Shown here: positions 14,324 through 31,960 of the stretch, in pieces
Position numbering within the stretch: position 1 is the stretch's first letter
How the letters are laid out: each line of letters begins with the position of its first letter
Source: an uncultured Haliea sp.
GTDB taxonomy: Bacteria > Pseudomonadota > Gammaproteobacteria > Pseudomonadales > Halieaceae
DNA length: 33,207 nt
Direction of reading: 5' to 3'
NCBI GenBank assembly: GCA_947258585.1
Contig: CAMYIZ010000022.1
Location: forward strand, 1-33,207
The notes under the pieces: generated by a model
Databases searched by the model: none
Told to the model about the DNA's origin: nothing
The model's input: only the letters and a program-made list of their open reading frames with translations
Program-made: the position numbers and the translations under genes

Positions 14324-15091
14324 TCAGGCCTCCGCGACCATGCCGCCGTCCAGCACCAGCACATGGCCCGTCACCCAGGCCGAGGCCCTGGAACTCAGGT
14401 AAATAGCGGTGCCGGCGGCATCCTCCGGGGAGCCCATGCGGCTGATCGGGAAGGCCTTGGCGATCTCATCCTCGTGCCCCGCCATGTGCGCGGTCATCTT
14501 GCTCGGAAACAGGCCCGGGGCAATGGCGTTGACGTTCACCTGCTCCCGCGCCAGTTCGGCGCCCATGTGCCGCGTGAGCTGGTGCACCGCCGCCTTGCTG
14601 GCGCAGTAACCATAGTTCGTCATGTGGCTGTTGGTAATACCGTTCACGGACCCGATATTGATCACTCGCGCCGGATCCGCGGCTGTACCCGCAGCCCGCA
14701 GCGACGGCAGCAACTGCTGGGTGAGGAAGAAGATCGACTTGACGTTGAGGTCCATCACCTTGTCCCAGCCGCTCTCGGGAAACTCATCGATGCTCGCACC
14801 CCAGGTGGCCCCGGCGTTATTGACCAGGATGTGCAGCGCCGGCTCACGCTCGCGAATCTCGGCGGCAAAGCGGGTGACTCCCTCCACGGTGGACAGGTCC
14901 GACGCCAGGGCAATGCACTCGCCCTGCCGGGAAAGTTCGGCGGCGGTTGCCTGCAGTTCATCCTCGCGACGGGCCGTGATGTAGGTGCGCACGCCGTTGG
15001 CCACAAAACCCTCGGCAATCATCGCACCAATGCCACGGGATCCCCCCGTTACCACCGCCACCTTGCCACTGACATCAAACAGGTTTTTCAT
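14324..15091 (-). CDS. RhlG-like short-chain dehydrogenase/reductase
   Basis: Classical SDR of 255 residues with the cofactor motif TGGSRGIG (15-22), NNAG (91-94), and catalytic S148, Y162 and K166. An arginine after beta-2 (TARRED, R41-42) suggests NADP(H). Several blocks, such as GWDKVMDLNVKSIFFLTQQL and ARVINIGSVNGI, resemble RhlG of Pseudomonas, a beta-ketoacyl reductase-like protein, so the likely substrate is a 3-oxoacyl or related lipid chain; this is inference. A strong GGAGGAAAG precedes the ATG. It is the last gene of the seven-gene minus-strand operon, 49 bases after the carboxyltransferase gene, with a hairpin and a TATAAA in that gap that could give some separate control. Confidence 0.9.
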   Translation of the reverse strand: MKNLFDVSGKVAVVTGGSRGIGAMIAEGFVANGVRTYITARREDELQATAAELSRQGECIALASDLSTVEGVTRFAAEIREREPALHILVNNAGATWGASIDEFPESGWDKVMDLNVKSIFFLTQQLLPSLRAAGTAADPARVINIGSVNGITNSHMTNYGYCASKAAVHQLTRHMGAELAREQVNVNAIAPGLFPSKMTAHMAGHEDEIAKAFPISRMGSPEDAAGTAIYLSSRASAWVTGHVLVLDGGMVAEA

Positions 15092-15123
15092 TGCTTTCCT
15101 CCGATTTATACCATTTCACAAGC

Positions 15124-15139
15124 GGGCGTTTGCACGCCC
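15124..15139 (-). other. Intercistronic stem-loop with GCAA loop
   Basis: On the minus strand GGGCGT pairs with ACGCCC across a GCAA (GNRA-type) tetraloop, directly after the carboxyltransferase stop codon at 15141-15143. No T-run follows, so it is more likely an RNA-processing or stability element, or a weak attenuator, between the last two operon genes. Confidence 0.45.
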
Positions 15140-15140
15140 A

Positions 15141-16676
15141 TCAGCGCGCTACAACCCCGGCGGCACGCAATGCCTTCAGCACCTCGCCGCGGGTATCTGC
15201 CGGGTCAATCACCGCGTCGATTTCCAGGAAGGAAGCCGCCTCAGTCGCCTTCCCCGACTCGTACAGGCGTGCCACCAGTTGCTCGAACAGCGCCTCGCGT
15301 TCCGCGGGATCGGCAATCGCTTCCAGCTCCTTGCGGTACCCGAGCCTGACCGCACCCTCCAGGCCCATGCCACCAAATTCGCCGGTCGGCCAGGACGCCG
15401 AATACACCGGGGCCATGAAACTGCCGCCCGTCATGGCCATGGCGCCAAGGCCGTAGCCCTTGCGCAGAAAAATGGCCACCACCGGCACGGTCAGGCTGGC
15501 GCCGGTCAGGAACAGGGCGGACATGCGACGCACCGCGGCTTCCTGCTCGCTGGCCGGGCCCACCATAAAGCCGGGGGTGTCAGTCAGGGAGAGTACCGGC
15601 AGGCCAAAGGCATTGCACAGCTGCAGGAAGCGGGCGGCCTTCTCCGCGGACTCGGCATCCACGGCACCCCCCAGCTGCTGGCAATCGTTGGCGATCAGCG
15701 CTACCGGCATGCCCTCAAGGCGGATGAAACCGGTGATGATGCCGCGGCCGTAGACGCGGCGCAATTCAAGGAAAGAGCCGCTGTCGGCAATGATCTCGAT
15801 CACCTTGCGCACCGGGTAGGCCCAGCGCCGGTCCGCGGGAATCAGGTCTCGCAGCGGAAGCTGATCGCCACAGTCCCAGGCGGCGACCGGCCCCTGAAAG
15901 TAACCCAGCAACTGGCGCGCCAGCACCGTTGCCTGGGCCTCGTCGTCCGCGGCGATATCGACCACGCCGTTTTTCAGCTGCACATCAATAGGGCCGATGG
16001 CCTTCGCCTCGACTTTGCCCAGGCCGCCACCCTCGATCATGGCGGGACCGGCCATGCCGATCCAGGAACTGCGGGTGGCAATGGTAAAATCGGCGCAACC
16101 AAACAGGGCCGCATTGCCGGCGAAACAGTAGCCGTTGTTGACCGCAATACGCGGCACCTTGCCCGCGAGCCTGGCCCAGGTCCGGAAAGAATGCAGATGC
16201 AGGCCGGCGATCTGGGTCAGTACATCGGTGTCACCGGGGCGTCCACCGCCGCCCTCGGTATACATGACAATCGGCAGGCGGTGCTGCTCCGCGAGTTCGC
16301 ACAGACGGTCCAGCTTGCCGTGGTGGAAAAAGCCCTGGGTTCCCGCGAGTACCGCGTAGTCGTTGACGACTACAGCCGCCCGCGCCGCGGTGCTGCCGAC
16401 GCGATCCGCGTTGATGGTAGCCGTGCCGGTGATGATGCCGTCGGCGGCGGTGCTGGACTGCAGTTCCCGGTAGTCGCGACGGTTGCGCTGGGCCGCCACC
16501 GCGAGCTGGCCGTATTCCTGGAAGCTGTCCGGGTCTACCAGATCTGCCAGGTTCTCCCGCGCGGTACGATAGCCGGCCGCGTGGCGACGCTGCCGGGCTT
16601 CGGCACGACCCGCATCCAGGGTACGCAGTAATCTGTCCCGCAGGGCCTGCAGTTCCGGGCGCGGGCTGTCATCCAA
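15141..16676 (-). CDS. Acyl-CoA carboxylase carboxyltransferase (beta) subunit
   Basis: The 511-residue protein has the two crotonase-fold halves of biotin-dependent carboxyltransferases (PccB/MccB/AccD family). The N-half includes MYTEGGGGRPGDTD and NNGYCFAGNAALFGCAD. The C-half includes VYGRGIITGFIRLEGMPVA, LTDTPGFMVGPASE and KGYGLGAMAMTGG. These enzymes move carboxyl from biotin to an acyl-CoA such as propionyl-, methylcrotonyl- or geranyl-CoA; the substrate is not readable here. A biotin carboxylase/BCCP partner is required by the family but absent from the window. It starts 34 bases after the hydratase gene in the operon, and the Shine-Dalgarno (GAGGG, about 13 bases away) is weak. Confidence 0.88.
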   Translation of the reverse strand: MDDSPRPELQALRDRLLRTLDAGRAEARQRRHAAGYRTARENLADLVDPDSFQEYGQLAVAAQRNRRDYRELQSSTAADGIITGTATINADRVGSTAARAAVVVNDYAVLAGTQGFFHHGKLDRLCELAEQHRLPIVMYTEGGGGRPGDTDVLTQIAGLHLHSFRTWARLAGKVPRIAVNNGYCFAGNAALFGCADFTIATRSSWIGMAGPAMIEGGGLGKVEAKAIGPIDVQLKNGVVDIAADDEAQATVLARQLLGYFQGPVAAWDCGDQLPLRDLIPADRRWAYPVRKVIEIIADSGSFLELRRVYGRGIITGFIRLEGMPVALIANDCQQLGGAVDAESAEKAARFLQLCNAFGLPVLSLTDTPGFMVGPASEQEAAVRRMSALFLTGASLTVPVVAIFLRKGYGLGAMAMTGGSFMAPVYSASWPTGEFGGMGLEGAVRLGYRKELEAIADPAEREALFEQLVARLYESGKATEAASFLEIDAVIDPADTRGEVLKALRAAGVVAR

Positions 16677-16710
16677 GACGGAGCCCTCGCTGGGGGACCG
16701 GCCGCGCCAT

Positions 16711-17499
16711 TCAGCCCTGCTGCTTCTGCTGTTTGCCGCGGGCGGTCACAGCCTGCCGCTGGGCGGCGATATCCTCGCCCGAGACCCGGCTGTTGGCATG
16801 AGTCATGACCTGCTTTTCCATCGCCAGGCCGGCCCCCAGGGTCATCTCCAGGCCATCGTTAACCAGGGCCTTGTAGGCCTTCACCGTCCAGGGTACGCAG
16901 CTGGCAATGTCCTCGGCCAGCTGACGGCAGGCACCCGCCAGGGCATCCGGCGCCACCACCCGACTGACCAGACCCCAGGCATCCGCCTGCTGGGCGCTGA
17001 TGAAGTTGCCGCTGAAATGGGCCTCCCGGGCACGGCTGTGGCCGATGATGCGAGCCAGCTTCTGGGACAGGCCCCAGCCCGGCGCCAGCCCCACCCGACA
17101 GTGGGTGTCGGCAAACCGCGCCTCGGAAGAGGCAATGAGAATGTCCCCCATCAGCGCCAGCTCGAAGCCCCCGGTGGCGGCGACACCGTTGATGCCCATA
17201 ATTATGGGCCGGTCGAAGGCGCGCAGCGCGGCGTAGATATCGTTGTCTCCGTGAATCGCAAAAGCCCCCAGCCCCTGTGGATGGCTGCTGAGCGCTTTCA
17301 GGTCCAGCCCGGCGCAGAATGCCCGGCCCTTCCCGGTCAGGATGACGGCGCGGACTTCCTTGTCCGCCTGCAGCTCGCGAAACGCGGTACAGAGGTCGCT
17401 GAGCAGTGTTGGCGACAGGGCGTTCATCGCCTCGGGGCGATTGAGAGTAAGCGTGACCACCGAGCCATCCCGCTCGAACAGCAGTTCAGCCTCCGCCAT
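16711..17499 (-). CDS. Enoyl-CoA hydratase/isomerase family protein (one catalytic Glu retained)
   Basis: Crotonase-fold enzyme of 262 residues with the CoA/oxyanion segments GRAFCAGLDL and NGVAATGGFELALMGD. Compared with rat mitochondrial crotonase, the first catalytic glutamate is kept (E113 in GGFEL). The position of the second one (E164 in rat) is histidine (H133 in ADTHCRVG). Enzymes of this pattern may act as isomerases or hydrolases rather than hydratases, so the reaction is uncertain. The C-terminus ends in a Gln/Lys-rich RGKQQKQQG. An AGGAGAGG Shine-Dalgarno precedes the ATG and overlaps the end of the upstream paralog's stop region; the gap is 11 bases, which indicates one operon. 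Confidence 0.9.
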   Translation of the reverse strand: MAEAELLFERDGSVVTLTLNRPEAMNALSPTLLSDLCTAFRELQADKEVRAVILTGKGRAFCAGLDLKALSSHPQGLGAFAIHGDNDIYAALRAFDRPIIMGINGVAATGGFELALMGDILIASSEARFADTHCRVGLAPGWGLSQKLARIIGHSRAREAHFSGNFISAQQADAWGLVSRVVAPDALAGACRQLAEDIASCVPWTVKAYKALVNDGLEMTLGAGLAMEKQVMTHANSRVSGEDIAAQRQAVTARGKQQKQQG

Positions 17500-17510
17500 G
17501 TTCGCCTCTC

Positions 17511-18293
17511 CTATTTACCCTGCCACTGGGGGGCACGTTTCTCCGTAAAAGCCGCCACGCCCTCGCGGGCATCGGCGCTGGCAATACAGATTGCCTGCAA
17601 ACGCGCCTCTTCGGAAATGGTGTCAGCCACACCCTGCTCAATGGCGAAATTGAGCGCCGCCTTGGCGTGGCGCAGGGCCAGGGGCGCCTTCCCGGCCAGC
17701 TCCTGCGCCCACTGCAGCGCCTCCTCCAACAGGGACTCCGCAGCCACCACCCGGTTGCAGAGACCCAGCTCCCGACAGCGTTCCGCAGGCAGTTTCTCGC
17801 CGGACACAATCAGTTCATAGGCGCGCTTGCGACCCAGGGTACGGACCAGGTGCCAAGTGGCGCCGCCATCGGGCACCAGGCTGATGGCGGCGAAGGCCTG
17901 ATAGATGTAGGCGTTCTCGGCCATCAAGGTGAGATCACAGACCATGGCAAAGGAGCTGCCGACACCTGCCGCCGCGCCATTGACCGCGCTTATCCAGGGC
18001 TTGGGTGCCTCGGCAATGGCCATCAGGATGGGCTTGTACTCGGTGTTCAGCTGTTTTTCGACGTCGAAATCATCGCCCGCCACTTCCGACAGGTCGGCAC
18101 CGGCGCAGAAAGCGCGCCCCGCACCGGCCAGAACCCCGACACGAATGGCGGCGTCTTCGTTGACTTCCTGCACTGCCTGCAGCAAGTCGCGCCGCAGCGC
18201 GGCATTGAATGCGTTGAGGCTGTCGGGGCGATTCAGGGTCACCAGGGCAACCTGTCCGTGCCGGGTTACCGTGACTGTTTCATAGTTGGCCAT
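17511..18293 (-). CDS. Crotonase-fold protein, PaaG-like isomerase pattern
   Basis: A second crotonase-fold enzyme (260 residues) with GRAFCAGADLSE and NGAAAGVGSSFAMVCD. Both crotonase glutamates are missing: the first position is serine (S114) and the second is phenylalanine. Instead it has LVPDGGATW (D142), matching the aspartate-containing LIPDCGGTW region of E. coli PaaG, a ring-opening enoyl-CoA isomerase. It is therefore better read as a PaaG-like isomerase than as a hydratase; the substrate is unknown. The ending AFTEKRAPQWQGK is also PaaG-like. A GAGGAG Shine-Dalgarno precedes the ATG. It lies 30 bases after the racemase gene and 11 bases before the next paralog. Confidence 0.88.
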   Translation of the reverse strand: MANYETVTVTRHGQVALVTLNRPDSLNAFNAALRRDLLQAVQEVNEDAAIRVGVLAGAGRAFCAGADLSEVAGDDFDVEKQLNTEYKPILMAIAEAPKPWISAVNGAAAGVGSSFAMVCDLTLMAENAYIYQAFAAISLVPDGGATWHLVRTLGRKRAYELIVSGEKLPAERCRELGLCNRVVAAESLLEEALQWAQELAGKAPLALRHAKAALNFAIEQGVADTISEEARLQAICIASADAREGVAAFTEKRAPQWQGK

Positions 18294-18323: not shown

Positions 18324-19457
18324 TCAACCCAACGTACCCGAGTCACGCAGCTTTCTGATTTCGCTCTCCGCAAAACCCATCGCCGCCAGCGTTTCCTCGG
18401 TGTCCTCACCGAGACTGTGGGGACCGTGGGCAACCTGCGACGGCGTCCGGCTGAAGCGCGGCGCCGGCGCCGGCTGGGTCACTCCATCCATTTCGATATA
18501 AGTGTTGCGGGCCACGTTGGCCGGGTGTTTTGGCGCGTCCACGAATGACAGCACCGGCGCAAAACAGACGTCCGTGCCCTCCATGATCTCGCACCACTCC
18601 GCCTGGGTCTTGCGCTTGAAAACCGCCGCCAGCTTGTCCGTGAGTTCCGGCCACAGGGAGGAATCATTCTGGTTGCCGAACTCGTCTTCCGGCAATTCCG
18701 CCAACTGTTTAAGCAGGGCATAGAACTGTGGCTCGATCGAACCCACCGAGATGTACTCGCCGTCTGCACACTCATAGGTATCGTAGAAATGCGCTGCCCC
18801 ATCCAGCAGGTTGGCCCCGCGCTGGCTGGCATCCCAGCCGCCGATGGCGTGGAAACCGTGGAACATCCACATCAACTGGGCAGCGCCGTCGACCATCGCC
18901 ACGTCGATGACCTGGCCCTTGCCGGAGTTCGCGGTTTCCAGCAAGGCCGCCAGCACGCCGTTGACCAGCAGCATGCCGCCACCGCCCATGTCGCCCACCA
19001 GATTGAGCGGCGGCACGGGCTTCTGCCCCTTGCGACCAGTGGCAAACAGCGCCCCGGTGAGGGAGATATAATTGATATCGTGCCCGGCGGCGTGCGCCAG
19101 CGGACCTTCCTGGCCCCAGCCGGTCATGCGCGCGAACACCAGTCGCGGATTGCGCTGCAGGCAGGTCTCAGGGCCGACGCCCAGCTTCTCGCAGACACCG
19201 GGACGATAGGGATCGATCAACACATCCGCGTTCTCGATCATCCGCAGCAGGGTCTCCACCCCTTCAGGCTGTTTCAGGTTGAGGACCACGGACTTCTTGC
19301 CGCGGGCGCTGACATCGCGCGTCTGCTTGGGGTCGGTGCCGTTGGCTCGCTCGATGCGAATCACTTCCGCACCCATATCGGCGAGTATCATCCCGCCCAT
19401 GGGGGCGGGACCGATACCCGCGAGCTCAATCACGGTGAAGCCGTTCAGTGGTCCCAT
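18324..19457 (-). CDS. Alpha-methylacyl-CoA racemase (family III CoA-transferase fold)
   Basis: The 377-residue protein belongs to the CaiB/BaiF fold. Residues of the racemase subgroup are present: H126 in GHDINY, D156 in NLVGDMGGG and E242 in GSIEPQFY, matching the H126/D156/E241 acid-base set known for the mycobacterial alpha-methylacyl-CoA racemase. The enzyme interconverts (2R)- and (2S)-2-methylacyl-CoA, needed before beta-oxidation of pristanoyl-type or sterol side-chain acyl-CoAs because the dehydrogenase accepts only the S form. The Shine-Dalgarno AAGGGGG lies ahead of the ATG. It is 12 bases after the HSD10-like gene and is the strongest clue that the operon handles methyl-branched chains. 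Confidence 0.93.
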   Translation of the reverse strand: MGPLNGFTVIELAGIGPAPMGGMILADMGAEVIRIERANGTDPKQTRDVSARGKKSVVLNLKQPEGVETLLRMIENADVLIDPYRPGVCEKLGVGPETCLQRNPRLVFARMTGWGQEGPLAHAAGHDINYISLTGALFATGRKGQKPVPPLNLVGDMGGGGMLLVNGVLAALLETANSGKGQVIDVAMVDGAAQLMWMFHGFHAIGGWDASQRGANLLDGAAHFYDTYECADGEYISVGSIEPQFYALLKQLAELPEDEFGNQNDSSLWPELTDKLAAVFKRKTQAEWCEIMEGTDVCFAPVLSFVDAPKHPANVARNTYIEMDGVTQPAPAPRFSRTPSQVAHGPHSLGEDTEETLAAMGFAESEIRKLRDSGTLG

Positions 19458-19469
19458 GATCGAGCCCCC

Positions 19470-20243
19470 TTAACGCGGCTGCATGCGGATGGCGCCGTCG
19501 AGACGGATACACTCGCCATTCACGTAGTCGTTTTCAGCGATAAAGATCGACAGGTGGGCAATTTCCTCGGGCCTGCCCAGACGACGTGGGTAACACACGC
19601 TGCTCTCCAGGGATTTGTAGGCCTCTTCCGGCAGCGATTCGAACAACGGCGTGTGAATCAGGCCGGGCACAATGGTGTTGACGCGGATGCCGTAGCTCGC
19701 CAGGTCACGGGCCATGGGCAGGGTCATGCCAACGATGCCGCCCTTGCTGGCGCTGTAGGCCAGCTGGCCGACCTGGCCCTCCATGGCGGCAATGGATGCC
19801 GTATTGATGATCACGCCGCGGCCGCCGTCTTTGTTGATCGGTTCGTTCTTCGCCATCTGCTCCGCCGCGTAGCGCGCCACATTGAAGGTTCCGACCAGGT
19901 TCACGTTGATGACCGGCATGAACTGGTCCAGCGGGAACGGGCCATTCTTGCCCAGGGTCTTGCAGGCGCTGCCGATACCGGCGTAGTTGTTGCAGATGTG
20001 CACGGCGCCGAACTTCTCGACTACCCCCGCAACTGCTTCACGGACCACGTTCTCGTCCGCCACGTTGACGCTCCAGAAGCCAACCTTGTCGGCGCCAAGC
20101 TGATCGATAAGCGCTTTGGCGTTGGCCTCGTTGAGGTCAAAGATGGCAACCTTGGCGCCCTTCGCCACATAGGCCTCGACGGTGGCGCGGCCAAGCCCGG
20201 AGGCCCCGCCGGTTACGATGGCTACTTTTCCTGCGAGTTCCAT
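19470..20243 (-). CDS. HSD10-like 3-hydroxyacyl-CoA dehydrogenase (SDR)
   Basis: SDR of 257 residues with the cofactor loop TGGASGLG (11-18), an aspartate after beta-2 (AIFDLN, D36) that predicts NAD+, and catalytic S150, Y163 and K167 (YSASK). The [15 protein letters not shown] and [15 protein letters not shown] blocks are those of type-2 3-hydroxyacyl-CoA dehydrogenase (HSD17B10), which oxidises 3-hydroxy-2-methylacyl-CoA and related substrates. The usual NCAG/NNAG loop reads NYAG here (CNNYAGIG). It would supply the third step of beta-oxidation in the operon. The Shine-Dalgarno AAGGAG lies about eight bases from the ATG. The gap to the upstream acyl-CoA dehydrogenase gene is 24 bases. Confidence 0.92.
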
Positions 20244-20267: not shown

Positions 20268-21443
20268 TCAGAAATTGCGTGTATTGAACGGTGTGTAACT
20301 GTCAGACAGGCAGTCCCGACTGATGATGATTTTCATGACCTCGGAACTGCCCGCGTAAATTGTGGCGATCTTGGCGTCCGTACACTGGCGACTGATGGGG
20401 TACTCATCCATGAACCCGGCGCCGCCGTGCAGCTGGACCCCGAGATCCGCCGAGGCCACCTGCAACTCGCTGGTGACCAGTTTCGCCTTGGCGGCGTCCA
20501 CCGCCGTCAGGGCGCCATTATTGAACGCCCGGACGCACTGGTCGACATAAATTTGCGCAATATCCAGCTGCGTGCGCATCTCGGCCAGTTTGAACTGGGT
20601 ATTCTGGAAGGCCGCCAGGGGCTTGCCGAATACCTTGCGCTCGCGCACGAATTCGGCGGTCAGGTCCCAGGACAGCTGGGCCGCGGCCAGGTAGCCGCAG
20701 GCGCCGATCAGGCGCTCCTCCGCCAGGCCTTCCATCAGATAGATGAACCCCTTCCCCGGCTCACCCAGTACATTGGCCTTGGGTACCTTGACGTCGTTGA
20801 AGAACAGCTCGGCAGTGTCCTGCGCCTTCATGCCCATCTTCTTCAGGTTGCGGCCGCGCTCGAAGCCTTCCATGCCCCGCTCCACAATGAACAGGGTCAT
20901 GTGGTGAGGATTGTTCTCGGGGTCGGTCTTGGCCGCCACAATCACCACGTCAGCGTTTATGCCGTTGGAAATGTAGGTCTTGGAACCATTCAACAGCCAG
21001 TGATCGTCTGCCTCCACTGCCGTTGAGCGCATGCCGGCGAGATCGCTGCCGGCATCCGGCTCGGTCATGGCGATGGCCAGGATGGTCTCCCCGCTGATAC
21101 AGCCGGGCAGGAAACGCTGGCACTGCTCCTCACTGCCGAAGCGGGTAAAATAGGGGCCGACCAGGCGACCGTGCAGGGTGCTGTACCAGTCGCCCGCACG
21201 CGCGTAGGCGGTTTCCTCAATGATCACCTGCTCGAAGCGAAAATCGGGGTCTCCCATGCCGCCGTACTTCTCCTCCGGCCAGACCATCAGGAACCCCTGC
21301 TCCCCCGCCTTGCGAAATGCGGAGCGGTCGACGATTCCGGCCTCTCGCCAGGCCTCCATATGTGGCACAATCTCGGCAGCGAGGAATTTTCGATAGGCAT
21401 CTCGAAACATGTTCTGTTCATCGGTGAAGTCGCGTTGCAGCAT
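20268..21443 (-). CDS. Acyl-CoA dehydrogenase (FAD-dependent)
   Basis: First gene of the operon; introduces the alpha-beta double bond in acyl-CoA. From ATG 21443 it has 391 residues with the ACAD helical N-domain, the FAD/substrate motif AIAMTEPDAGSDLAGM, the middle beta domain (LNGSKTYISNGINAD) and the C-terminal helical domain (RERKVFGKPLAAFQNTQFKLAEM, then LHGGAGFMDEYPISRQ). The medium-chain catalytic glutamate site (YEG) is YAGSSEVM, so the base probably sits in the alternative helix-G position used by the isovaleryl/long-chain group; the exact residue is not certain. AGAGG ahead of 21443 supports this start over an in-frame GTG at 21476. ACAD partners such as ETF are not encoded here. 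Confidence 0.94.
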   Translation of the reverse strand: MLQRDFTDEQNMFRDAYRKFLAAEIVPHMEAWREAGIVDRSAFRKAGEQGFLMVWPEEKYGGMGDPDFRFEQVIIEETAYARAGDWYSTLHGRLVGPYFTRFGSEEQCQRFLPGCISGETILAIAMTEPDAGSDLAGMRSTAVEADDHWLLNGSKTYISNGINADVVIVAAKTDPENNPHHMTLFIVERGMEGFERGRNLKKMGMKAQDTAELFFNDVKVPKANVLGEPGKGFIYLMEGLAEERLIGACGYLAAAQLSWDLTAEFVRERKVFGKPLAAFQNTQFKLAEMRTQLDIAQIYVDQCVRAFNNGALTAVDAAKAKLVTSELQVASADLGVQLHGGAGFMDEYPISRQCTDAKIATIYAGSSEVMKIIISRDCLSDSYTPFNTRNF

Positions 21444-21481
21444 GTCTGTTGCCTCTGATGGATAAGATAAGTGCACCTGCC

Positions 21482-21510
21482 AGTATGTGCAGCGGCGCCA
21501 ACGCCAGCAA
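21482..21510 (-). promoter_or_regulatory. Candidate promoter of the acyl-CoA operon
   Basis: On the minus strand TTGCTG (complement of 21505-21510) and CATACT (complement of 21482-21487) are separated by 17 bases. The -10 matches four of six consensus positions and the -35 three. Transcription would start near 21475, about 32 bases before the ATG. The upstream TGACCT repeats at 21511-21538 would sit at about -36 and beyond, a position from which activators act. Confidence 0.3.
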
Positions 21511-21538
21511 TGACCTGTGCCGACAAATAAATTGACCT
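21511..21538. promoter_or_regulatory. Direct repeats TGACCT spaced 22 bp, candidate AraC-family site
   Basis: TGACCT occurs at 21511-21516 and 21533-21538 in the same orientation, 22 bp start to start, which is two helical turns. AraC-family regulators typically bind two direct half-sites 21-22 bp apart. The pair is in the 132-base divergent region between the acyl-CoA operon and the GGDEF-araC genes. The second copy overlaps a TTGACC at 21532-21537 that could be the -35 of the plus-strand promoter (with TAGACA at 21555-21560). A weaker third copy, TGACAG, is at 21543-21548. Confidence 0.45.
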
Positions 21539-21575
21539 AAACTGACAGCGCCAGTAGACAGGGCCCAAACCACCC

Positions 21576-22751
21576 ATGCACATCAGTTTCGCCGAGCATA
21601 TCGTCTTCGCCCACTACGGCATGGTAGTCGCACTCGTCTGCGCCCAGATGCTGGTGCTGTACGCCCTGAGCGATGTCGCGCGGCCGCCGGCGGGGCTTGG
21701 ATTCTACAGTGTCTACTTCATGACGGCACTGCTGGCCTGGATCGCCTTCACGGTAGCCGAGGTCGCCAATCTGGCGGTGGCGGTGAATGTGCCGGCAGTG
21801 GCCGCAATGATCAGCAGCTACCTGCTGTTGTTGGCCGTCATGCAGCGCTCGGACATACGGCGTGGCCGCTACGCCATCGGCGCCGCCTCCGCCTGTGCCT
21901 GCCTGGCCGTCTTTTTTCTCGATCCCGCACCCATGCTGCAGGTCTACGGGGCCGCGACAGCGCTGGCATGGGGAACGCTGGCCGCGATCTCCGGCATTCG
22001 GGGCCTGCACTCACGCAACGCTGGCGACGGCATTATCAGCCTGGGCGGCGCGGCCATGCTGGGCGCGATGCTGGCCTTTCTCCTGACCTTTCTCCCCGGC
22101 CGCACGGATCCAGCCACCACGTCCGGAATTGCCTACGCCCTGCACAGCGGTGCTCACGTGCTGGTGATAATCGGTTTTCTTACCAGCATTGTAGTCGACC
22201 AACGGCATCAGCTCCTGCGCCAGAACACCCTGGACCCTTTGACCCGCCTGCTCAATCGCCGCGGGCTGGAGCAAGCCCTGCATGTCACCCTCGCCAATGC
22301 CTGCCGCCACGGGCAGACCACCGCGGCGGTGATGCTGAACATCGACCACCTGCAACGGCTCAATGACCACTTCGGCGCGGACACCGGCGACAAGGTGATC
22401 CAGCAGGTGTCCCAGTGTCTGGAAGCCGAGTGCCGCGCCAGCGACGTTGTCTCCCGCTACGACGGCGACACCTTCCTGGCGATACTGCCCAATTCGGATC
22501 TGGCAGCGGCCAGGAAGCTGGCGGAACGTATCCGCGGTCACCTCGCGGCCGCCGTACTCCAGGTGGCAGACCAACCGGTAGCGGTTACCGTCAGCCTGGG
22601 TATCGCCGAGGCACTGGGGGCCACCAGCCTGGACCGTCTCTGCAAGGACGCGGAGCTGGCCCTGCAGCTGGCCAAGCGGGGCGGCCGCAATCGGGTGGCA
22701 GCCGTCGAGCACCGCGCGGTCCAGCTCAGCAACCATCCGGCGAGGCCCTGA
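21576..22751 (+). CDS. Membrane GGDEF-domain protein with degenerate active site and intact I-site
   Basis: The 391-residue protein has about six or seven hydrophobic segments over residues 8-210 and a cytosolic GGDEF domain from about 215 to 385 (TLDPLTRLLNRRGLEQAL to the AKRGGRNRVAA end). The signature is DGDTF (296-300) instead of GG(D/E)EF, and the first metal-binding aspartate is asparagine (LNID, N255). Diguanylate cyclase activity is therefore doubtful. The inhibitory-site motif RxxD is intact as RASD (287-290), five residues before the signature as in PleD, so it could act as a c-di-GMP receptor. The start ATG lacks a clear Shine-Dalgarno. Its TGA directly abuts the ATG of the AraC gene. 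Confidence 0.9.
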   Translation: MHISFAEHIVFAHYGMVVALVCAQMLVLYALSDVARPPAGLGFYSVYFMTALLAWIAFTVAEVANLAVAVNVPAVAAMISSYLLLLAVMQRSDIRRGRYAIGAASACACLAVFFLDPAPMLQVYGAATALAWGTLAAISGIRGLHSRNAGDGIISLGGAAMLGAMLAFLLTFLPGRTDPATTSGIAYALHSGAHVLVIIGFLTSIVVDQRHQLLRQNTLDPLTRLLNRRGLEQALHVTLANACRHGQTTAAVMLNIDHLQRLNDHFGADTGDKVIQQVSQCLEAECRASDVVSRYDGDTFLAILPNSDLAAARKLAERIRGHLAAAVLQVADQPVAVTVSLGIAEALGATSLDRLCKDAELALQLAKRGGRNRVAAVEHRAVQLSNHPARP

Positions 22752-23750
22752 ATGCGGGAACTGTCGATTTCCGTCTACTTTGCCCGCGCGGTGTTGCGCA
22801 ACGCTGTGGCCATCGGCCTGGACCCCATGCAGCTGCTGCGCAAGAACCGGATATCTCCCCGCCTGTTGCTGGAGGAAGGTGCGCGCATCTCGATTGAGCG
22901 CTTCGCTGACCTGCAGGTCAGCACCATGCTGGCGATGAACGACGAAGCCCTGGGCTACACCAGCCGCCGCCTGCCCATCGGCACCTGGTCCATGATGTGC
23001 CACGCGGTCATAGGCTGCGAAACCCTGGGGCAGGCGCTGAACCGCTACTGCCGCTTTTTCCAGCTTTTTGAAGCGACACCCTTTCCCGCGCTCGTGGAGG
23101 AGGCCGACCTGGTCAGGTTGCGGCTGCAACACGAAGGGCACGTGCCGCCTCAGCCCTACCCGGTCGAACTGATGCTGTTCAATGCCCACCGGTTCGGCAG
23201 CTGGCTGGTGCAGGAACACCTGCCGCTGCAGGTCGTCAACCTGGCCTATCCGCCCGCGGCGCGGCAGGAGGACTACCGGCGCATGTTCCTCGCCAATCCC
23301 GTCCATTTTGACAGCGAACACTGTGAACTGGTGTTCTCCGCGACGCTGATGGACCGGCGCATCAGCCAGACTGAGCAGAGCCTGCGTCACTACCTGCGGC
23401 ATCCGGTGCTGATGATGCTGACCCAGGATTTTTCTCGCAATAGCTGGACCACACGGGTTCGCGACCAGATACGCTACAGCCTGCACGACATGCCGGAACT
23501 GGCTGCTGTGGCGGAGACACTGGACATTCACCCGCAGACTCTGCGTCGACGCCTGTCGGCAGAAGGCACGACCTTCAAGGACATCAAGAACCAGCTGCGG
23601 CGGGACACCGCGCTGCATTACCTCGGCAAGCAGGGTCTCTCAATCGAGGAAATCGCCTGCCGCTCGGGCTTTTCCGAATCCAGCGCGTTCATCCGCGCCT
23701 TCAAGGGCTGGACCGGCGTTACCCCGTACACCTACCGCAAAGGTCTCTGA
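22752..23750 (+). CDS. AraC-family transcriptional regulator (arabinose-binding-like N-domain type)
   Basis: The 332 residues have an N-terminal ligand-type domain of the Arabinose_bd/OruR-ArgR group (segments GALGY-like DEALGYTSRRLPIGTWSMM and CETLGQALNRYCRFF) and a C-terminal double helix-turn-helix. In the latter, LAAVAETLDIHPQTLRRRL is the first helix-turn-helix and IEEIACRSGFSESSAFIRAF the second, followed by GVTPYTYRK. Related regulators often control acyl-CoA, lipid or amino-acid catabolic operons. The gene starts at the base after the GGDEF stop (TGAATG), with GAGG eight bases before the ATG, so the two are co-translated. Control of the divergent acyl-CoA operon through the TGACCT repeats is inference. 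Confidence 0.93.
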   Translation: MRELSISVYFARAVLRNAVAIGLDPMQLLRKNRISPRLLLEEGARISIERFADLQVSTMLAMNDEALGYTSRRLPIGTWSMMCHAVIGCETLGQALNRYCRFFQLFEATPFPALVEEADLVRLRLQHEGHVPPQPYPVELMLFNAHRFGSWLVQEHLPLQVVNLAYPPAARQEDYRRMFLANPVHFDSEHCELVFSATLMDRRISQTEQSLRHYLRHPVLMMLTQDFSRNSWTTRVRDQIRYSLHDMPELAAVAETLDIHPQTLRRRLSAEGTTFKDIKNQLRRDTALHYLGKQGLSIEEIACRSGFSESSAFIRAFKGWTGVTPYTYRKGL

Positions 23751-23829
23751 ACCCGCCGCTGTGCTCGCGGGCACCTACTCGTCTATAGTGAGCAGGCACC
23801 ACCACCCGCAGAAACGAAAGGAGAGCATT

Positions 23830-26688
23830 GTGCGTATCGCTTTACGAGGCCTGGCATACAGCTATATCGCCTACCTCGTGGTCACCTTCCTGGTCCTGCT
23901 GCCGGCCCTGAACTTCCTTCCGCCCTGGCTGGCGAAGGAGCACTGGGGCCGCACCCTCACCACCGAGCTTGTCCTCTTCAATCCCTTCACCCTGGCCCTG
24001 GAGGCGCGAGGGGGCGCCCTGAGCGAGCCGGACGGGAGCGAATTCCTGGACTTTGAGCGGGTCGAGGCCAACCTTTCCCTGGCCAGCCTGATCCAGTCCG
24101 GAGTGGTGTTCGACAGGGTGACGCTGAAGGCGCTGAACGTTCATTTGCAGCGCTTTGCCGACGGCAGCCTGAATATCAGCGACCTGCTGCCCGCGCCGTC
24201 CACGGCCGCAGCACAGCCCGCGACCGAAGCCGGCGAGTTGCCAGCCCTCCACATCAGCGCACTGGACTTGAGCGCAGGGCGCATCACAATCACCGACCAC
24301 CAGCACCCCGGAAGCTTCAGCACTCATCTTGCGGCACTTGAGCTGGCGGTCACCGGACTGTCCACCGTTGCCGCAGCCGGCCAGGCCTACCGCCTGGCTG
24401 TCCAGAGCGAGGGCGGGGGACGCCTGCTGGTGCAGGGTGAGCTGTCCCTGGCCGCGGGCAGCAGCAGCGGCAGCCTGGCCGTGGACAGTGTTGACCTGCG
24501 CCCCCTCTGGCGGTTCGCGGAGCCGTGGCTTGCCTTCGAGCTCGACAGCAGCCATGTCAACCTGTCACTGCAGTACGCTGCCAACTGGCAGGACGGGCCG
24601 GACTTCACCGTGAACGACGGCAAGCTCGAGCTCATCGGCACCCGGATTGGCCCCCGCGCGGGCAGCGACCTGCAGGACACTGGCATGGCCATCGACGCCC
24701 TGGTGGTGAGCGACATCAGCGTCGACGGGGAACAGAAAACGCTTGGCGTCGGGCGCGTAACCGTCGATGGGCTGGCGCTGAGCGGCCGCAGCGAGGGGAG
24801 CAGGGTGAGCCTGGCGGAGCTGTTCGCGCTGCCGGCAAGCGCAGCGAGTGAGGACCAGGAGCCAGAGTCGGCCACCCCCTGGCGTCTGCGGCTGGGGCTG
24901 TTCCAGCTACGCGACAGTGAAATCGCCTGGCGCAGCGAATTCACCGAGCCCAGCCTGCTGACAGTGCGGCCACTGACCGCTGAAGTGCGCGATATTCGCT
25001 GGCCCACCGAGGGCGCGAGCCCCCTGACCCTGGCCCTGCGGGTCAACGATCTGGCCAGCCTGGAAGCTGAGGGCGGCGTGGACGCCGGCACCGGCAGCGT
25101 TGAACTCGCTTTCCAGCTGCAGGGGCTGCCGCTGGGCTGGCTCGAGCCCAACCTCCCGTCGGTCCTGCAGGCTGCCATCAGCAGCGGAGAAGTGCGCACC
25201 GCCGGCAGCATCACGCTGGAAGAATTCCAGCCGGCAACGCTCGCGCTGGAAGGCGCCGTAACCCGGTTTGCCATGGTCCTGCAGGGCGCAGAGGACGCCC
25301 TCACCCTCTGGGACAACCTGCACTGGGAAGGGCTGGCAGTGGACATGCGGGAACGCAGCATCAACCTGGCGGAACTGCACCTTGAGGGCTACCAGGGCCG
25401 CCTGCATATCCAGAAAGACGGCAGCATCAACCTCCAGCGCCTGCTGGAGCAGGAGGACCCGGGTAGTCCAGAGCCAGCGCCCGACGCTGCGCCAGGCCCA
25501 GCGCCTGGGTCCGGGCCCGAGCCCGCAGAAACCGCGCCCTGGCGGTTCAGCGCCCCGGCGATTTTCATCGCCAACAGCGCCCTCGATTTCCAGGACGAAT
25601 CGCTACCGATCCAGTTCCGCACGGTCATCGGCGATCTCGATGGCACCCTGACCAACCTCAGCAGCGACCCCGCGCAACAGCTGCAGGTGGACCTGAAGGG
25701 CTCGGTTGACGGCTATGCGCCGGTCACCCTCACCGGCACCGCGAGCCCCCTGCGGTCACCGCCTGCGCTGGACCTGGAACTGGATTTTCGCGGTGTCGAT
25801 ATGTCACGCCTCACACCCTACTCTGGTACCTACGCCGGCTACGCGATTGAGCGCGGGACCCTGAATGCCACGCTGGGCTACAGCCTGCAGAACGCCCGGC
25901 TGCAGGGGGACAACCGGATCGTGATCAAGCAGCTCAAACTGGGTGATCGAGTGGCGAGCGACAAGGCCCTGAACCTGCCCCTGCGCCTGGGCATCGCCCT
26001 GCTCACGGACAGCAACGGGGTCATAGACCTCGCGGTACCGGTGAGTGGTGACGTCAACAATCCACAGTTCAGCCTCGGCAGCGTGATCGCCGGCGCCTTC
26101 ACCAATCTGCTGACCCGGGCGATCACTGCGCCCTTCAGCCTGCTCGCCAGCCTGGTTGGCAGCAGCGAGGATCTGCAGACCGTGGACTTCGCCGCCGGCG
26201 GCAGCGAACTGGACAGCCACGGGAAAATCAAGCTGCAGGACCTGGCCGCCGCCATGCAGCAGCGACCCGGCCTGCGGCTGCTGATTGAGGGGCGCATCGA
26301 CCCGGCAACCGATCGCGCCCGCCTGCAGGAACAATTACTGCAGGCTGCACTGCTGGGACAGGGGCTCAGCACCGCCGATATCAGCGAGCGCAGCGAGGCC
26401 TGGGAAGTCGCGATCGCCGAGCGCTACGCCCGGCTCGATGAAGTGCCAGCGAAGGACCCCGAAACTGCCGCTCCGTCCCTGTTGCAGCAGGCCCGCACCC
26501 TGCGTGACCAGTGGCCGGTGCCGGACAGCGCGCTGGCAGCGCTGGCCAGTGATCGCGCGGCCAGCTGCAAGCGTTTCCTGGTCAACGAGGGCGAAGTAGA
26601 TCCGGAGCGCGTGGTCGTGGCTCCTCCGCCGCAGCCCGGGGCTGAGGTGAACACCTTCAGCGGAGTGGAACTGGCAGTGGAAACCTGA
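23830..26688 (+). CDS. DUF748/AsmA-like envelope protein with OmpA-like C-terminal region
   Basis: The 952-residue protein has one N-terminal membrane segment (IAYLVVTFLVLLPALNFL) and a long repetitive beta-rich periplasmic body of the DUF748 family, related to AsmA. DUF748 blocks include LNISDLLP, MSRLTPYSGTYAGYAIERG and LPLRLGIALLTDSNGVIDLAVP. A Pro/Ala linker is at about 544-570. The last 165 residues (VDFAAGGSELDSHGKIKLQDL to SDRAASCKRFLVNEG) resemble an OmpA-like domain interrupted by an insertion. Such proteins are thought to span the periplasm and affect lipid transport or envelope integrity; that is family inference. The GTG at 23830 follows AAAGGAGAG closely, favouring it over an upstream GTG at 23761. 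It converges with sprT. Confidence 0.9.
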   Translation: MRIALRGLAYSYIAYLVVTFLVLLPALNFLPPWLAKEHWGRTLTTELVLFNPFTLALEARGGALSEPDGSEFLDFERVEANLSLASLIQSGVVFDRVTLKALNVHLQRFADGSLNISDLLPAPSTAAAQPATEAGELPALHISALDLSAGRITITDHQHPGSFSTHLAALELAVTGLSTVAAAGQAYRLAVQSEGGGRLLVQGELSLAAGSSSGSLAVDSVDLRPLWRFAEPWLAFELDSSHVNLSLQYAANWQDGPDFTVNDGKLELIGTRIGPRAGSDLQDTGMAIDALVVSDISVDGEQKTLGVGRVTVDGLALSGRSEGSRVSLAELFALPASAASEDQEPESATPWRLRLGLFQLRDSEIAWRSEFTEPSLLTVRPLTAEVRDIRWPTEGASPLTLALRVNDLASLEAEGGVDAGTGSVELAFQLQGLPLGWLEPNLPSVLQAAISSGEVRTAGSITLEEFQPATLALEGAVTRFAMVLQGAEDALTLWDNLHWEGLAVDMRERSINLAELHLEGYQGRLHIQKDGSINLQRLLEQEDPGSPEPAPDAAPGPAPGSGPEPAETAPWRFSAPAIFIANSALDFQDESLPIQFRTVIGDLDGTLTNLSSDPAQQLQVDLKGSVDGYAPVTLTGTASPLRSPPALDLELDFRGVDMSRLTPYSGTYAGYAIERGTLNATLGYSLQNARLQGDNRIVIKQLKLGDRVASDKALNLPLRLGIALLTDSNGVIDLAVPVSGDVNNPQFSLGSVIAGAFTNLLTRAITAPFSLLASLVGSSEDLQTVDFAAGGSELDSHGKIKLQDLAAAMQQRPGLRLLIEGRIDPATDRARLQEQLLQAALLGQGLSTADISERSEAWEVAIAERYARLDEVPAKDPETAAPSLLQQARTLRDQWPVPDSALAALASDRAASCKRFLVNEGEVDPERVVVAPPPQPGAEVNTFSGVELAVET

Positions 26689-29053: not shown

Positions 29054-30757
29054 TCACAGTGCATCGGCGACCTGCAGGGACTCCCGCAGTTCGCGCTTGA
29101 GGAACTTGCCGCTGGCATTGCGCGGCAGGGGCTCCGGCAGCAGCCAGATATAGCGCGGCACCTTGTAGGGTGCCAGCAGGCCGGCGCAGTGGGCGCGCAG
29201 GTGGCTGGCATCCACCCCTGCTGCGTCGGGGCGCAAATATATTGCGGCGCCCACCTCCTCTCCCAGCCGCTCATCGGCAACCGCGAACACGACACACTCG
29301 GCCACGCCCTCGTGGGCGAACAGCGCATTCTCAACTTCCGCACAGTAGATATTCTCGCCCCCGCGCAACACCATGTCCTTGGCCCGGTCCACCAGGAAAA
29401 TGAAACCCTCGTCGTCAATGTAGGCAATATCCCCCGTGTGCAGCCAGCCATCGGTAATCGCCTCGGCGGTGGCGTCGGGGCGGTTCAGGTAACCCTTGAT
29501 CACCGGCGCGCCGCGAACCCACAGCTCGCCGATCTCATTGGCTCCGAGGTCCTCCCCACCAGCGCCGACACACTTGGCCTCGAAGGTAGGCATCGCCGGA
29601 CCCACACTCGCCGGCTTGTCGACGAAGAATTCCGCGGACACAGCAGCGATGATGCCGCAGGTCTCGGTCATGCCGTAACCGGTATTGGGCCGCGCGGACT
29701 GCGAGCGCTGCTGGATCTTGGCCACCAGGTCGGGCTGCAGCGCCGCGCCACCGCCGCCGAGCACGGTCAGCGAGGAAGTATCGCGACGGGCAAAATCCGG
29801 ATGCATGATGATCTCTCTGGCCATCATCGGCACACCGTTGAAGGTGGTGATGCGCTCCTCCTCAATCAACCTCAGCGCCTCTGCCGGATCCCACTTGTAC
29901 ATGTGCACCAGCTTGCCGCCCGCCACGGTCGTGGCCTGGGCAACGCAGTTATTGGCGGTGACGTGAAACAGGGGAGTTGCCACCAGTGAATTGGGAGCCG
30001 GCGTCGCGCCCGGAGCCGGCGGCGCCACACCGCGGGCCAGGGCGACGGCAATAGGCTGCACGGTGTTGATAAAGGCAACGTTCATGATATTGGCGACACA
30101 ACCTCGATGGGTCAGGCGCGCGCCCTTGGGCCGGCCGGTGGTACCGGAGGTGTAGAAGATACAGGCGTCGTCATCGGGGTCGATGCTCACCGCGGGCAAT
30201 GCCGGCTCCGCATTGATCAGCTCCACCCAGTCGGTTGCCCAGTCCGGGGCCTCCTGCTGCAGGCGTATCGCTACCACCTGCAGGCCGGGAAACTTGTCGC
30301 GCAGCTCCTCGAATCGTTGCAGGCGTTCCCGGTCGCAGAGCAGCACCACCGGCGCAGAGTCCTCCAGCGCGAACTCCATTTCGTGGGCCACCCACCAGGC
30401 GTTCATGCCAACCGCCACAGCGCCCATGGAGGTAATCGCCCAATAGGCCAGCATCCATTCGGGGTAGTTGCGCATTGCTATGGCAACCCGGTCACCGGGC
30501 TTTACCCCCTGCTTCTGTAACCAGTGCGCGATACTGGCGGTGTACGTCTGGGCCTGGGCATAGGTGCAGCGCTCTCCCGCGAACACCAGGTATTCCCGGT
30601 CGGCGTGTGCCGCGGTGCCCAGCCAGACCTCGCGCAGGGAGGGCGGCGCGTGGCGGTAGCTGCGCAGCGGTACCCCGCCCACAGCCACTGTCGTGACGTC
30701 AAAGGGCTGCCCGGGTGCGGTCAGCTGCTGCCATGCCTGTCTCAAATGTTCGTACAC
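29054..30757 (-). CDS. Acyl-CoA synthetase (AMP-forming, ANL superfamily)
   Basis: The 567-residue enzyme activates a carboxylic acid to acyl-CoA through an acyl-AMP. Motifs in order are the P-loop FYTSGTTGRPKGARLTHRG, the YGMTETCG adenine motif, the GWLHTGDIAYIDDEGF aspartate motif, the hinge RAKDMVLRGGENIYCAEVE and the A10 lysine in LPRNASGKFLKRELRE. The substrate is not readable. A GTG at 30757 preceded by AGAGG at seven bases is chosen as start; an in-frame upstream extension of 33 residues is unconserved. The gene is divergent from a gene for an ACAD10/11-like kinase. It converges with fpr and its stop codon at 29054-29056 immediately follows the fpr stop (no gap). A short palindrome lies just upstream. 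Confidence 0.94.
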   Translation of the reverse strand: MYEHLRQAWQQLTAPGQPFDVTTVAVGGVPLRSYRHAPPSLREVWLGTAAHADREYLVFAGERCTYAQAQTYTASIAHWLQKQGVKPGDRVAIAMRNYPEWMLAYWAITSMGAVAVGMNAWWVAHEMEFALEDSAPVVLLCDRERLQRFEELRDKFPGLQVVAIRLQQEAPDWATDWVELINAEPALPAVSIDPDDDACIFYTSGTTGRPKGARLTHRGCVANIMNVAFINTVQPIAVALARGVAPPAPGATPAPNSLVATPLFHVTANNCVAQATTVAGGKLVHMYKWDPAEALRLIEEERITTFNGVPMMAREIIMHPDFARRDTSSLTVLGGGGAALQPDLVAKIQQRSQSARPNTGYGMTETCGIIAAVSAEFFVDKPASVGPAMPTFEAKCVGAGGEDLGANEIGELWVRGAPVIKGYLNRPDATAEAITDGWLHTGDIAYIDDEGFIFLVDRAKDMVLRGGENIYCAEVENALFAHEGVAECVVFAVADERLGEEVGAAIYLRPDAAGVDASHLRAHCAGLLAPYKVPRYIWLLPEPLPRNASGKFLKRELRESLQVADAL

Positions 30758-30769
30758 AACGCGACCTCT

Positions 30770-30784
30770 GTTAGACTTGTCAAC
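30770..30784. promoter_or_regulatory. Imperfect inverted repeat upstream of the acyl-CoA synthetase gene
   Basis: GTTAGAC and GTCAAC flank TT, forming a near-palindrome about 12 bases before the minus-strand start and just upstream of its Shine-Dalgarno. The position fits a repressor operator. Only a single site is seen. The remainder of the 183-base divergent gap holds no clear promoter; it contains GC-rich sequence near 30830-30850. Confidence 0.3.
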
Positions 30785-30940
30785 TCGCGGAAGCCGCAGC
30801 ATACCCCGAGCTGCCAAACCGCTCAACGCCGCGGGCGCTGTGCGCCCTGCGGTCAAGTTTTTTGTCGCCGCACGTCATTGCCCGTCCACCAGCCGGGCGC
30901 CAGACTACGCCGTCGATTTACTCTGACAACAAGGATCCGC

Positions 30941-31960
30941 ATGAGCGCGCAGCAAATTGATACCGAGCGGCTTGCCGCCTACCTGGCAGACTACATTCCC
31001 GGGATCGACAAGGGACTCACGGCGGAGAAATTCCCCGGCGGCCAGTCCAACCCCACGTTCAAACTCAGCGCCAACGGGCAATCCTATGTCCTGCGCCGCA
31101 AGCCGCCGGGAGAGCTGCTGCCGTCCGCCCACGCGGTAGACCGTGAATTCCGCGTTATCTCCGCCCTGCAGGGCACCGACGTGCCTGTGCCCCGCACCTA
31201 TGTGCTCTGCGAAGACGAGTCTGTGCTGGGCTCGATGTTCTACGTGATGGAGTACATGGAGGGGCGCATTCTCTGGGATCCAGTGCTGCCCGACGCTGCC
31301 GACAACGCCGAGCGCAGCGCCATCTACGACTCCATGAACAAGACCCTGGCGGCGCTGCACAGCGTCAACGTCGAGTCTGTGGGGCTTGCGGACTACGGCA
31401 AGCCGGGCAATTACTTCGAACGCCAGCTCGGGCGCTGGACCAAGCAGTACCGGGCCTCGGAGACCGAAACCATGGCGGACATGGAGACCCTGCTGCAATG
31501 GCTGCCCGCCAACATGCCGGCAGACGATGGCACCGTCAGCCTGGTCCACGGGGACTATCGCCTGGACAACATGATGTTTCACCCTACCGAGCCCCGGGTG
31601 ATTGCCCTGCTGGACTGGGAGCTGTCCACTCTCGGACACCCTCTGGCGGACCTGGCCAACCAGTGCATGGCCTGGATGCTCCCGCGTGACAGCAGCATGA
31701 AGGGCCTGGCCGGCGTCGACCGCAAGTCACTGGGCATTCCCAGCGATGAAGAATATATAGCCCGCTACTGTGAGCGCACCGGGCGCGATGGCATAGACAA
31801 CTGGAACTTCTACCTGGTGTTCTCCCTGTTCCGCCTCGCGGCCATTGTCCAGGGGATCAAGAAACGGGCCCAGATTGGCACCGCCTCCAGCGCCGAGGCA
31901 GATGCTCGCGGCAACCTGGTGGGGCCACTGTCACAGCTCGCGGTTCAGCTGATCAAGTGA
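30941..31960 (+). CDS. APH-family phosphotransferase (ACAD10/11 N-terminal, LvaA-like)
   Basis: The 339-residue kinase-fold protein has a glycine-rich FPGGQSNPT (31-39), the ATP-binding VLRRKP (50-55), catalytic HGDYRLDN (203-210) and metal-binding LDWELSTLGHPLADLAN (224-240). It matches the kinase domain of mammalian ACAD10/11 and bacterial LvaA. These phosphorylate 4-hydroxyacyl-CoA so that an acyl-CoA dehydrogenase-type partner can convert it for beta-oxidation; in Pseudomonas levulinate catabolism LvaA works with an acyl-CoA ligase. The divergent acyl-CoA synthetase fits that pairing. Start ATG 30941 follows AAGGA; a much longer open frame upstream is unconserved. The downstream DCC-protein frame begins at GTG 31957, overlapping its stop. 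Confidence 0.9.
   Translation: MSAQQIDTERLAAYLADYIPGIDKGLTAEKFPGGQSNPTFKLSANGQSYVLRRKPPGELLPSAHAVDREFRVISALQGTDVPVPRTYVLCEDESVLGSMFYVMEYMEGRILWDPVLPDAADNAERSAIYDSMNKTLAALHSVNVESVGLADYGKPGNYFERQLGRWTKQYRASETETMADMETLLQWLPANMPADDGTVSLVHGDYRLDNMMFHPTEPRVIALLDWELSTLGHPLADLANQCMAWMLPRDSSMKGLAGVDRKSLGIPSDEEYIARYCERTGRDGIDNWNFYLVFSLFRLAAIVQGIKKRAQIGTASSAEADARGNLVGPLSQLAVQLIK

Follow-up and report, generated by a model that had tools for sequence, protein, structure and literature searches.

The stretch of DNA analyzed here, referred to as the window, is the 33,207-nucleotide contig CAMYIZ010000022.1 of an uncultured Haliea sp. (assembly GCA_947258585.1, family Halieaceae). On its + strand at 21576..22751, a gene with an ATG start encodes a 391-residue protein composed of a seven-helix membrane domain (residues 1–212, 21576..22211) followed by a degenerate GGDEF domain (residues 214–376, 22215..22703). 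Its TGA stop codon is directly abutted by the ATG of a gene on the same strand (22752..23750) for an AraC-family regulator, which contains a PF12625 Arabinose_bd domain and the C-terminal HTH_18 domain of AraC/XylS regulators (67.1 bits against a cut-off of 33.6). Upstream of the GGDEF gene, a conserved site of 39 base pairs (bp) at 21509..21547 (+ strand), which we propose as the operator of the AraC regulator, overlaps the putative promoter of a divergent operon for acyl-coenzyme A (acyl-CoA) metabolism. By their order, the GGDEF and AraC genes would form a single transcription unit.

The GGDEF domain was identified by Pfam (PF00990, residues 218–373, E = 1.6e-37, 129.2 bits against a curated cut-off of 23.8), by structural matching and by its substitution pattern described below. 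The full-length model (mean predicted local distance difference test score, pLDDT, of 83) has PleD (2wb4) as its top structural match (E = 1.3e-13). The PleD alignment, in which chain positions are the literature numbers minus one, is free of gaps across residues 218–320; in the literature numbering, we take N255 to be equivalent to PleD D327, R287 and D290 to R359 and D362, D296–F300 to G368–F372, and R318 to R390. The former signature (residues 296–300, 22461..22475, + strand) reads DGDTF in place of GGDEF and residue 255 (22338..22340, + strand) is an asparagine, as an earlier sequence-only reading of this DNA had stated, and the PleD alignment that it proposed as a check agrees. With DGDTF and N255, the protein departs from active diguanylate cyclases in both the GG(D/E)EF signature and the catalytic aspartate. 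D298 at the third motif position, which is presumably the second metal ligand, is retained. That reading also took the metal-binding aspartate as lost; this is correct for the window protein but is not a fixed change, since the position is N in five and D in three of the eight rows of genus g1 (Haliea).

By comparison, the residue triad of the inhibitory site (I-site) is complete. The RASD motif (residues 287–290, 22434..22445, + strand) is present, with the five residues between it and DGDTF that had been reported, and the third I-site arginine, R318 (22527..22529, + strand), which had gone unmentioned, is present too. The domain therefore combines the sequence features of an I-site receptor of the PelD and PopA kind, namely a degenerate signature, RxxD five residues upstream and a third arginine. 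In the excerpted text on PelD, the triad consists of R367, D370 and R402 in Pseudomonas aeruginosa, and no binding of cyclic dimeric guanosine monophosphate (c-di-GMP) was detected for alanine variants of R363, D366 and R395 in the Bacillus cereus protein (PMC7112168). R318 is matched by role to PelD R402 in our mapping.

The membrane anchoring that had been proposed is borne out by the seven predicted helices, modelled with AlphaFold2 from 40 sequences at a mean pLDDT of 86. From the loop charges, we read the topology as probably N-out and C-in. No Pfam family scored above its cut-off for the membrane domain, and a Foldseek search against the PDB returned no match at E ≤ 0.001. A rhodopsin-like or G-protein-coupled-receptor-like domain was considered and rejected, the best Foldseek value being 0.041 and that of bacteriorhodopsin 0.31. 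In microbial rhodopsins, the retinal-binding lysine sits in helix 7; residues 179–212 of the window protein contain no lysine.

Our comparison across the family reveals that the active site has eroded while the I-site has not. Of 140 Halieaceae genomes, 57 contain the membrane region, each with a single match. With an intact domain defined as D at PleD 327 plus [GSA]G[DE]E, 32 of the 57 orthologues are intact and 25 are degenerate, including all eight genus-g1 rows, in which D296, D298, T299 and F300 are fixed; these counts include the truncated orthologue L059 (272 residues), which stands outside the 56-row orthologue tree. PleD positions 327, 368, 369, 370 and 371 vary among the orthologues. 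The I-site residues equivalent to R359 and D362 are retained in 57/57 and that equivalent to R390 in 56/57 overall and in 25/25 degenerate ones. Among the degenerate rows, entropy is zero in the three I-site columns and at the 50th–78th percentile in the catalytic ones. At least nine changes between the intact and degenerate states are required on a maximum-likelihood orthologue tree built without the catalytic columns, and 10 on a quick-method AraC tree (89 rows, excluding L007, which has no AraC, and the short L037); neither count tells which way the changes went, and the placement of the long rows L057 and L058 is uncertain. One degenerate clade unites the eight g1 rows with both g19 rows. 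The AraC tree requires four changes to explain which genomes have the GGDEF gene itself and which lack it. Beyond the family, two genomes of a 390-genome draw from the order and two of a 369-genome draw from the class contain the membrane domain, both draws also including family members. All four of these relatives carry GGEEF and RxxD, and no AraC match was found in their flanks as examined, to ~1 kb beyond the gene.

The intact orthologues also bear on whether the window protein is a weak cyclase, whose non-canonical site would work slowly under feedback inhibition through RxxD. Besides the 32 intact relatives, the retained D298 and the aspartate at the 327 position in three of the eight Haliea rows are in keeping with residual turnover. 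However, D in place of G368 and T in place of E371 are fixed in 8/8 of these rows, and we consider a weak cyclase very improbable.

By the substitution test applied here, the erosion is not accompanied by decay. The ratio of nonsynonymous to synonymous substitution (dN/dS; Nei–Gojobori, own script) in the GGDEF region is 0.135 between the window and its nearest relative and 0.018–0.055 in four other Haliea pairs, the pair L051–L052 being nearly saturated at silent sites. By comparison, the membrane region gives 0.159–0.253 in the five matching pairs and exceeds the GGDEF region in each, while four AraC pairs give 0.056–0.110 and two pairs with intact GGDEF domains 0.078 and 0.147. Because its dN/dS stays within 0.018–0.135, the eroded Haliea GGDEF domain is under purifying selection and, by this test, is not decaying.

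The pairing with the AraC regulator, which the sequence-only reading had suggested from the abutting genes, is likewise conserved. The AraC gene lies directly downstream on the same strand in 56/57 genomes, with a gap of -8 to +25 bases. Among named records, the closest AraC relatives are found in Haliea sp. E1-2-M8 (90%), other Haliea, Kineobactrum, Parahaliea, Pseudohalioglobus, Seongchinamella and others, which places the window in a Haliea-like genome of this family. AraC orthologues at E ≤ 1e-60 occur in 77 of the 140 family genomes.

The proposed operator, AATGAC-N8-ACA-N5-ATTGAC-N3-A-NN-T-N-ACA, was examined in intergenic sequences of 20–600 bases, deduplicated to 58 (42 with and 16 without the GGDEF gene). 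AATGAC is present in 58/58 of them and TTGA[C/T] follows at the same distance in 57/58. When at most one mismatch among the 20 fixed positions was allowed, the 39-bp pattern was found in 75/140 family genomes, comprising 74 of the 77 that possess AraC (the others being G117, G123 and G132) and one of the 63 that do not (G009), whereas the reversed control pattern was found in 0/140 at the same threshold. This co-occurrence is partly expected, because the site is physically linked to AraC. Two further tests were therefore made. The dehydrogenase that heads the divergent operon was found in six of the 14 AraC-lacking genomes searched (of 63); that of G009 retains a perfect site, and upstream of the other five, which also lack the GGDEF gene, the best site has 7–11 mismatches, as random stretches do (6–11). 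In L094, L096 and L099, the site lies ~60 bases from the dehydrogenase start and 1.0–1.1 kilobases (kb) from AraC. The AraC-lacking genomes and these three loci indicate that, in genomes with AraC, the site stays with the promoter of the dehydrogenase. In the same three loci (genus g12), a different gene of ~315–320 codons, alpha/beta hydrolase-like by eye, stands between the dehydrogenase and AraC. Separately, L109 (G132) contains a close AraC relative (78%) with no GGDEF-gene match and no operator at ≤2 mismatches.

Read from the dehydrogenase, the site presents GTCA repeats, and it overlaps the -35 element of a promoter of the form TTGnTG-N17-CATACT; in the window, this promoter-like sequence is TTGCTG-N17-CATACT at 21482..21510 (- strand). 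Such a layout is expected for an AraC-type activator. Two additional sites with at most three mismatches were found in the same genome, and none with the reversed control. The second, at 30841..30879 (- strand), has three mismatches among the 20 fixed positions and the same geometry, and it lies upstream of an APH-family phosphotransferase gene (30941..31957, + strand, by Pfam), which we propose as a second target. A site in the same orientation stands upstream of an APH-like gene in 6/6 genomes examined (six of 13 two-site genomes, in addition to the window genome G000), the APH likeness being judged by eye and the window gene alone having been scanned with Pfam. The third (L318 3053-3092, contig C37 of G000) lies 67 bases upstream of an acetyl-CoA acetyltransferase (thiolase) gene. 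At the APH-like sites the -10 element reads CAnACT; that of the thiolase gene fits less well. An acyl-CoA ligase gene (29054-30856) is divergent from the APH-like gene, a layout that recurs in six other genomes.

The divergent operon, on the - strand, starts with an acyl-CoA dehydrogenase gene (20268..21443, start assigned by homology; the listed open reading frame begins at 21476), followed by genes for a short-chain dehydrogenase/reductase (SDR) oxidoreductase (19470..20243) and a family III CoA-transferase (18324..19457), and by a same-strand run encoding two enoyl-CoA hydratases, a carboxyltransferase and an SDR (14324..18293), all by Pfam. No NCBIfam family scored above its cut-off for the dehydrogenase, the CoA-transferase or the carboxyltransferase, with terpene, leucine and hydroxyacid pathways considered. 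The distribution of the site, the promoter layout and the further sites together suggest that the AraC regulator most probably activates acyl-CoA catabolism. Elsewhere in the window lies a gene for a wax ester synthase/diacylglycerol acyltransferase (Pfam WS_DGAT, 6374-7825). Downstream of AraC, a DUF748/AsmA-like gene (23761..26688, + strand) recurs as a neighbor in many of the examined loci and is not assigned a part in the system.

Seven predicted helices, lost catalytic residues, the triad R287/D290/R318 and an operator-like site over a divergent promoter can all be read directly from the DNA. We favor, at about even chances, the reading that the protein is a membrane pseudo-diguanylate cyclase, the I-site of which binds c-di-GMP and which acts as a modulator of an AraC activator of catabolism. 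In this mechanism, c-di-GMP would bind the I-site as in PelD, and binding may alter the pairing of the domain or its contact with the AraC protein. The activator of acyl-CoA catabolism would thereby be tuned both to c-di-GMP and to a signal perceived by the membrane domain. The chain thus envisaged, each arrow of which we infer, would run from the membrane signal and c-di-GMP through the conformation or pairing of the pseudo-cyclase to AraC activity and the acyl-CoA genes. The ancestor was probably an active, locally acting cyclase, and catalysis may have been lost repeatedly once a receptor or scaffold role sufficed.

Several observations weigh against this reading, beginning with the I-site. 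Among control GGDEF domains from six family genomes, RxxD is present in 43/52 intact and 11/22 degenerate ones. This set comprises 86 rows, one of them an orthologue, and is nearly complete for G000, G024, G047 and G134, with 5/40 matches of G053 and five rows of G057; 11 split or fragmentary alignments among 33 degenerate ones were removed by hand, the count before removal being 15/33. RxxD is thus common, and the fold does not require it; excerpted text gives its frequency as 57% of cyclases generally (PMC4215984). Given the control domains, RxxD was rejected as insufficient proof of receptor function. The earlier suggestion of a likely c-di-GMP receptor retains in its favor the lost signature and the kept I-site, but a motif shared by most intact controls is by itself a weak argument. 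Furthermore, 17 of the 32 columns that are invariant in the intact orthologues are still invariant in the degenerate ones, and I-site retention alone is therefore not unusual. The contrast between 25/25 degenerate orthologues and 11/22 degenerate controls favors selection on the I-site, with the caveat that shared ancestry keeps the rows from being independent.

The 17 persisting columns also raise the possibility that retention is structural, as it would be for a pure protein scaffold that needs no nucleotide to bind AraC or to dimerise, its RxxD being structural or only slowly lost. A direct action of this kind is described, in the excerpted text, for Escherichia coli DgcM, which acts with MlrA besides making c-di-GMP (PMC5052742). 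However, the absence of RxxD from 9/52 intact and 11/22 degenerate controls indicates that the motif is not structurally required, and we regard such a scaffold as quite unlikely. Two further GGDEF domains were noticed, each alike in four genera. One has N at PleD D327 with GGDEF and RxxD intact (L141, L197, L189 and L208), and the other has lost the signature and kept RxxD (L135, L201, L191 and L213), which makes it a candidate receptor.

The former active site provides a further counterpoint. N263 and D272 (PleD N335 and D344), the equivalents of which are presumably the guanine contacts in PleD, are kept in 23/25 and 24/25 degenerate rows, and guanine- and phosphate-contacting positions are also retained in the Haliea domains. 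This persistence lends some weight to an explanation that we hold to be unlikely, in which a remodelled active site (A-site) binds guanosine triphosphate (GTP) or another nucleotide with no turnover and signals to AraC, the I-site being a remnant or a second input. K367 and R371 are invariant in 8/8 genus-g1 rows, where the fixed D296, D298, T299 and F300 also look remodelled rather than decaying, and a precedent is described in the excerpted text on Caulobacter CC3396, whose GEDEF domain binds GTP and activates its own EAL domain (PMC4823724). In contrast, 13/25 degenerate rows have lost at least one of the two loop glycines, and all eight genus-g1 rows carry acidic residues at one or both of these positions, which should repel a triphosphate. 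In addition, the lineages differ in the A-site and agree in the I-site.

The remaining counterpoints concern the partnership of the two genes. AraC occurs with no GGDEF-gene match in 20 examined genomes, 19 of which have the 39-bp site, so the GGDEF partner is dispensable and would be a modulator. In 18 of these 20 loci, the gene facing AraC is the dehydrogenase; in L091 it is an SDR gene and no dehydrogenase was found, and in L098 the contig ends. Conversely, G009 (66% complete; L007, L321, contig C336) has an intact GGDEF gene and a perfect 39-bp site; no AraC was found in it, and a DUF748 gene directly follows the GGDEF gene. The partner-less loci, three of which hold a different gene in the same place, would suit a GGDEF gene that is co-transcribed with AraC and acts elsewhere. 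The adjacency in 56/57 genomes and the position of the gene between operator and AraC argue against mere neighborhood, which is the least probable of the explanations considered here.

Degenerate GGDEF domains that act as I-site receptors are already known as such, and the pseudo-cyclase proposed here differs from each described system in its setting. PelD is likewise a membrane protein with a degenerate GGDEF domain and an R/D/R I-site triad, according to the excerpted text (PMC7112168). It also carries a GAF domain and serves in the control of Pel polysaccharide, whereas the window protein has seven helices and AraC and acyl-CoA neighbors. A PelD orthologue was ruled out, a Pfam scan having found no GAF domain in the pseudo-cyclase and acyl-CoA genes taking the place of the pel operon context. 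PopA acts in CtrA proteolysis and, unlike the window protein, is not known to have a membrane domain. Excerpted text describes this Caulobacter crescentus protein as a degenerate GGDEF protein whose intact I-site binds c-di-GMP, and the DgcM-PdeR-MlrA system of E. coli as one in which a GGDEF protein works directly with a transcription factor (PMC5052742). In that system, DgcM has cyclase activity, MlrA is MerR-like and the target is csgD. In Sinorhizobium meliloti, CuxR is an AraC-like regulator under c-di-GMP control, as excerpted (PMC10519070). The cupin domain of CuxR itself binds c-di-GMP, whereas here the AraC regulator is of the PF12625 type and the role of receptor is proposed for a different protein. 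A CuxR-like binding of c-di-GMP by the window AraC is not favored, its ligand domain being PF12625 and no cupin family matching at E ≤ 0.001. The CC3396 GEDEF domain resembles the window domain as a degenerate GGDEF domain that still binds nucleotide (PMC4823724, in excerpt), but it is fused to EAL and senses GTP. The literature searched contained no pairing of a seven-helix GGDEF protein with AraC, no AraC partner with a predicted catabolic regulon and no family with repeated catalytic erosion and an unchanged I-site. No paper was found on GGDEF, AraC and acyl-CoA dehydrogenase together, and a paper found on Halieaceae with GGDEF is, as excerpted, not on such a system.

More tentatively, and with more doubt than confidence, we propose a two-protein receptor-regulator, in which the seven-helix pseudo-cyclase reads c-di-GMP and a membrane signal and gates AraC, the I-site having stayed frozen through as many as about nine transitions from enzyme to receptor and the old active site having become, in Haliea, a fixed DxDTF motif with its own function. 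The orthologues, 32 of them apparently active and 25 eroded, constitute a natural series in one genomic setting, suitable for testing the change from enzyme to receptor. With an operator and target promoters, the system also makes a concrete prediction, that acyl-CoA catabolism in a marine family of bacteria receives input from c-di-GMP signaling. If the two-protein reading is true, a biofilm second messenger would directly set fat breakdown in Halieaceae.
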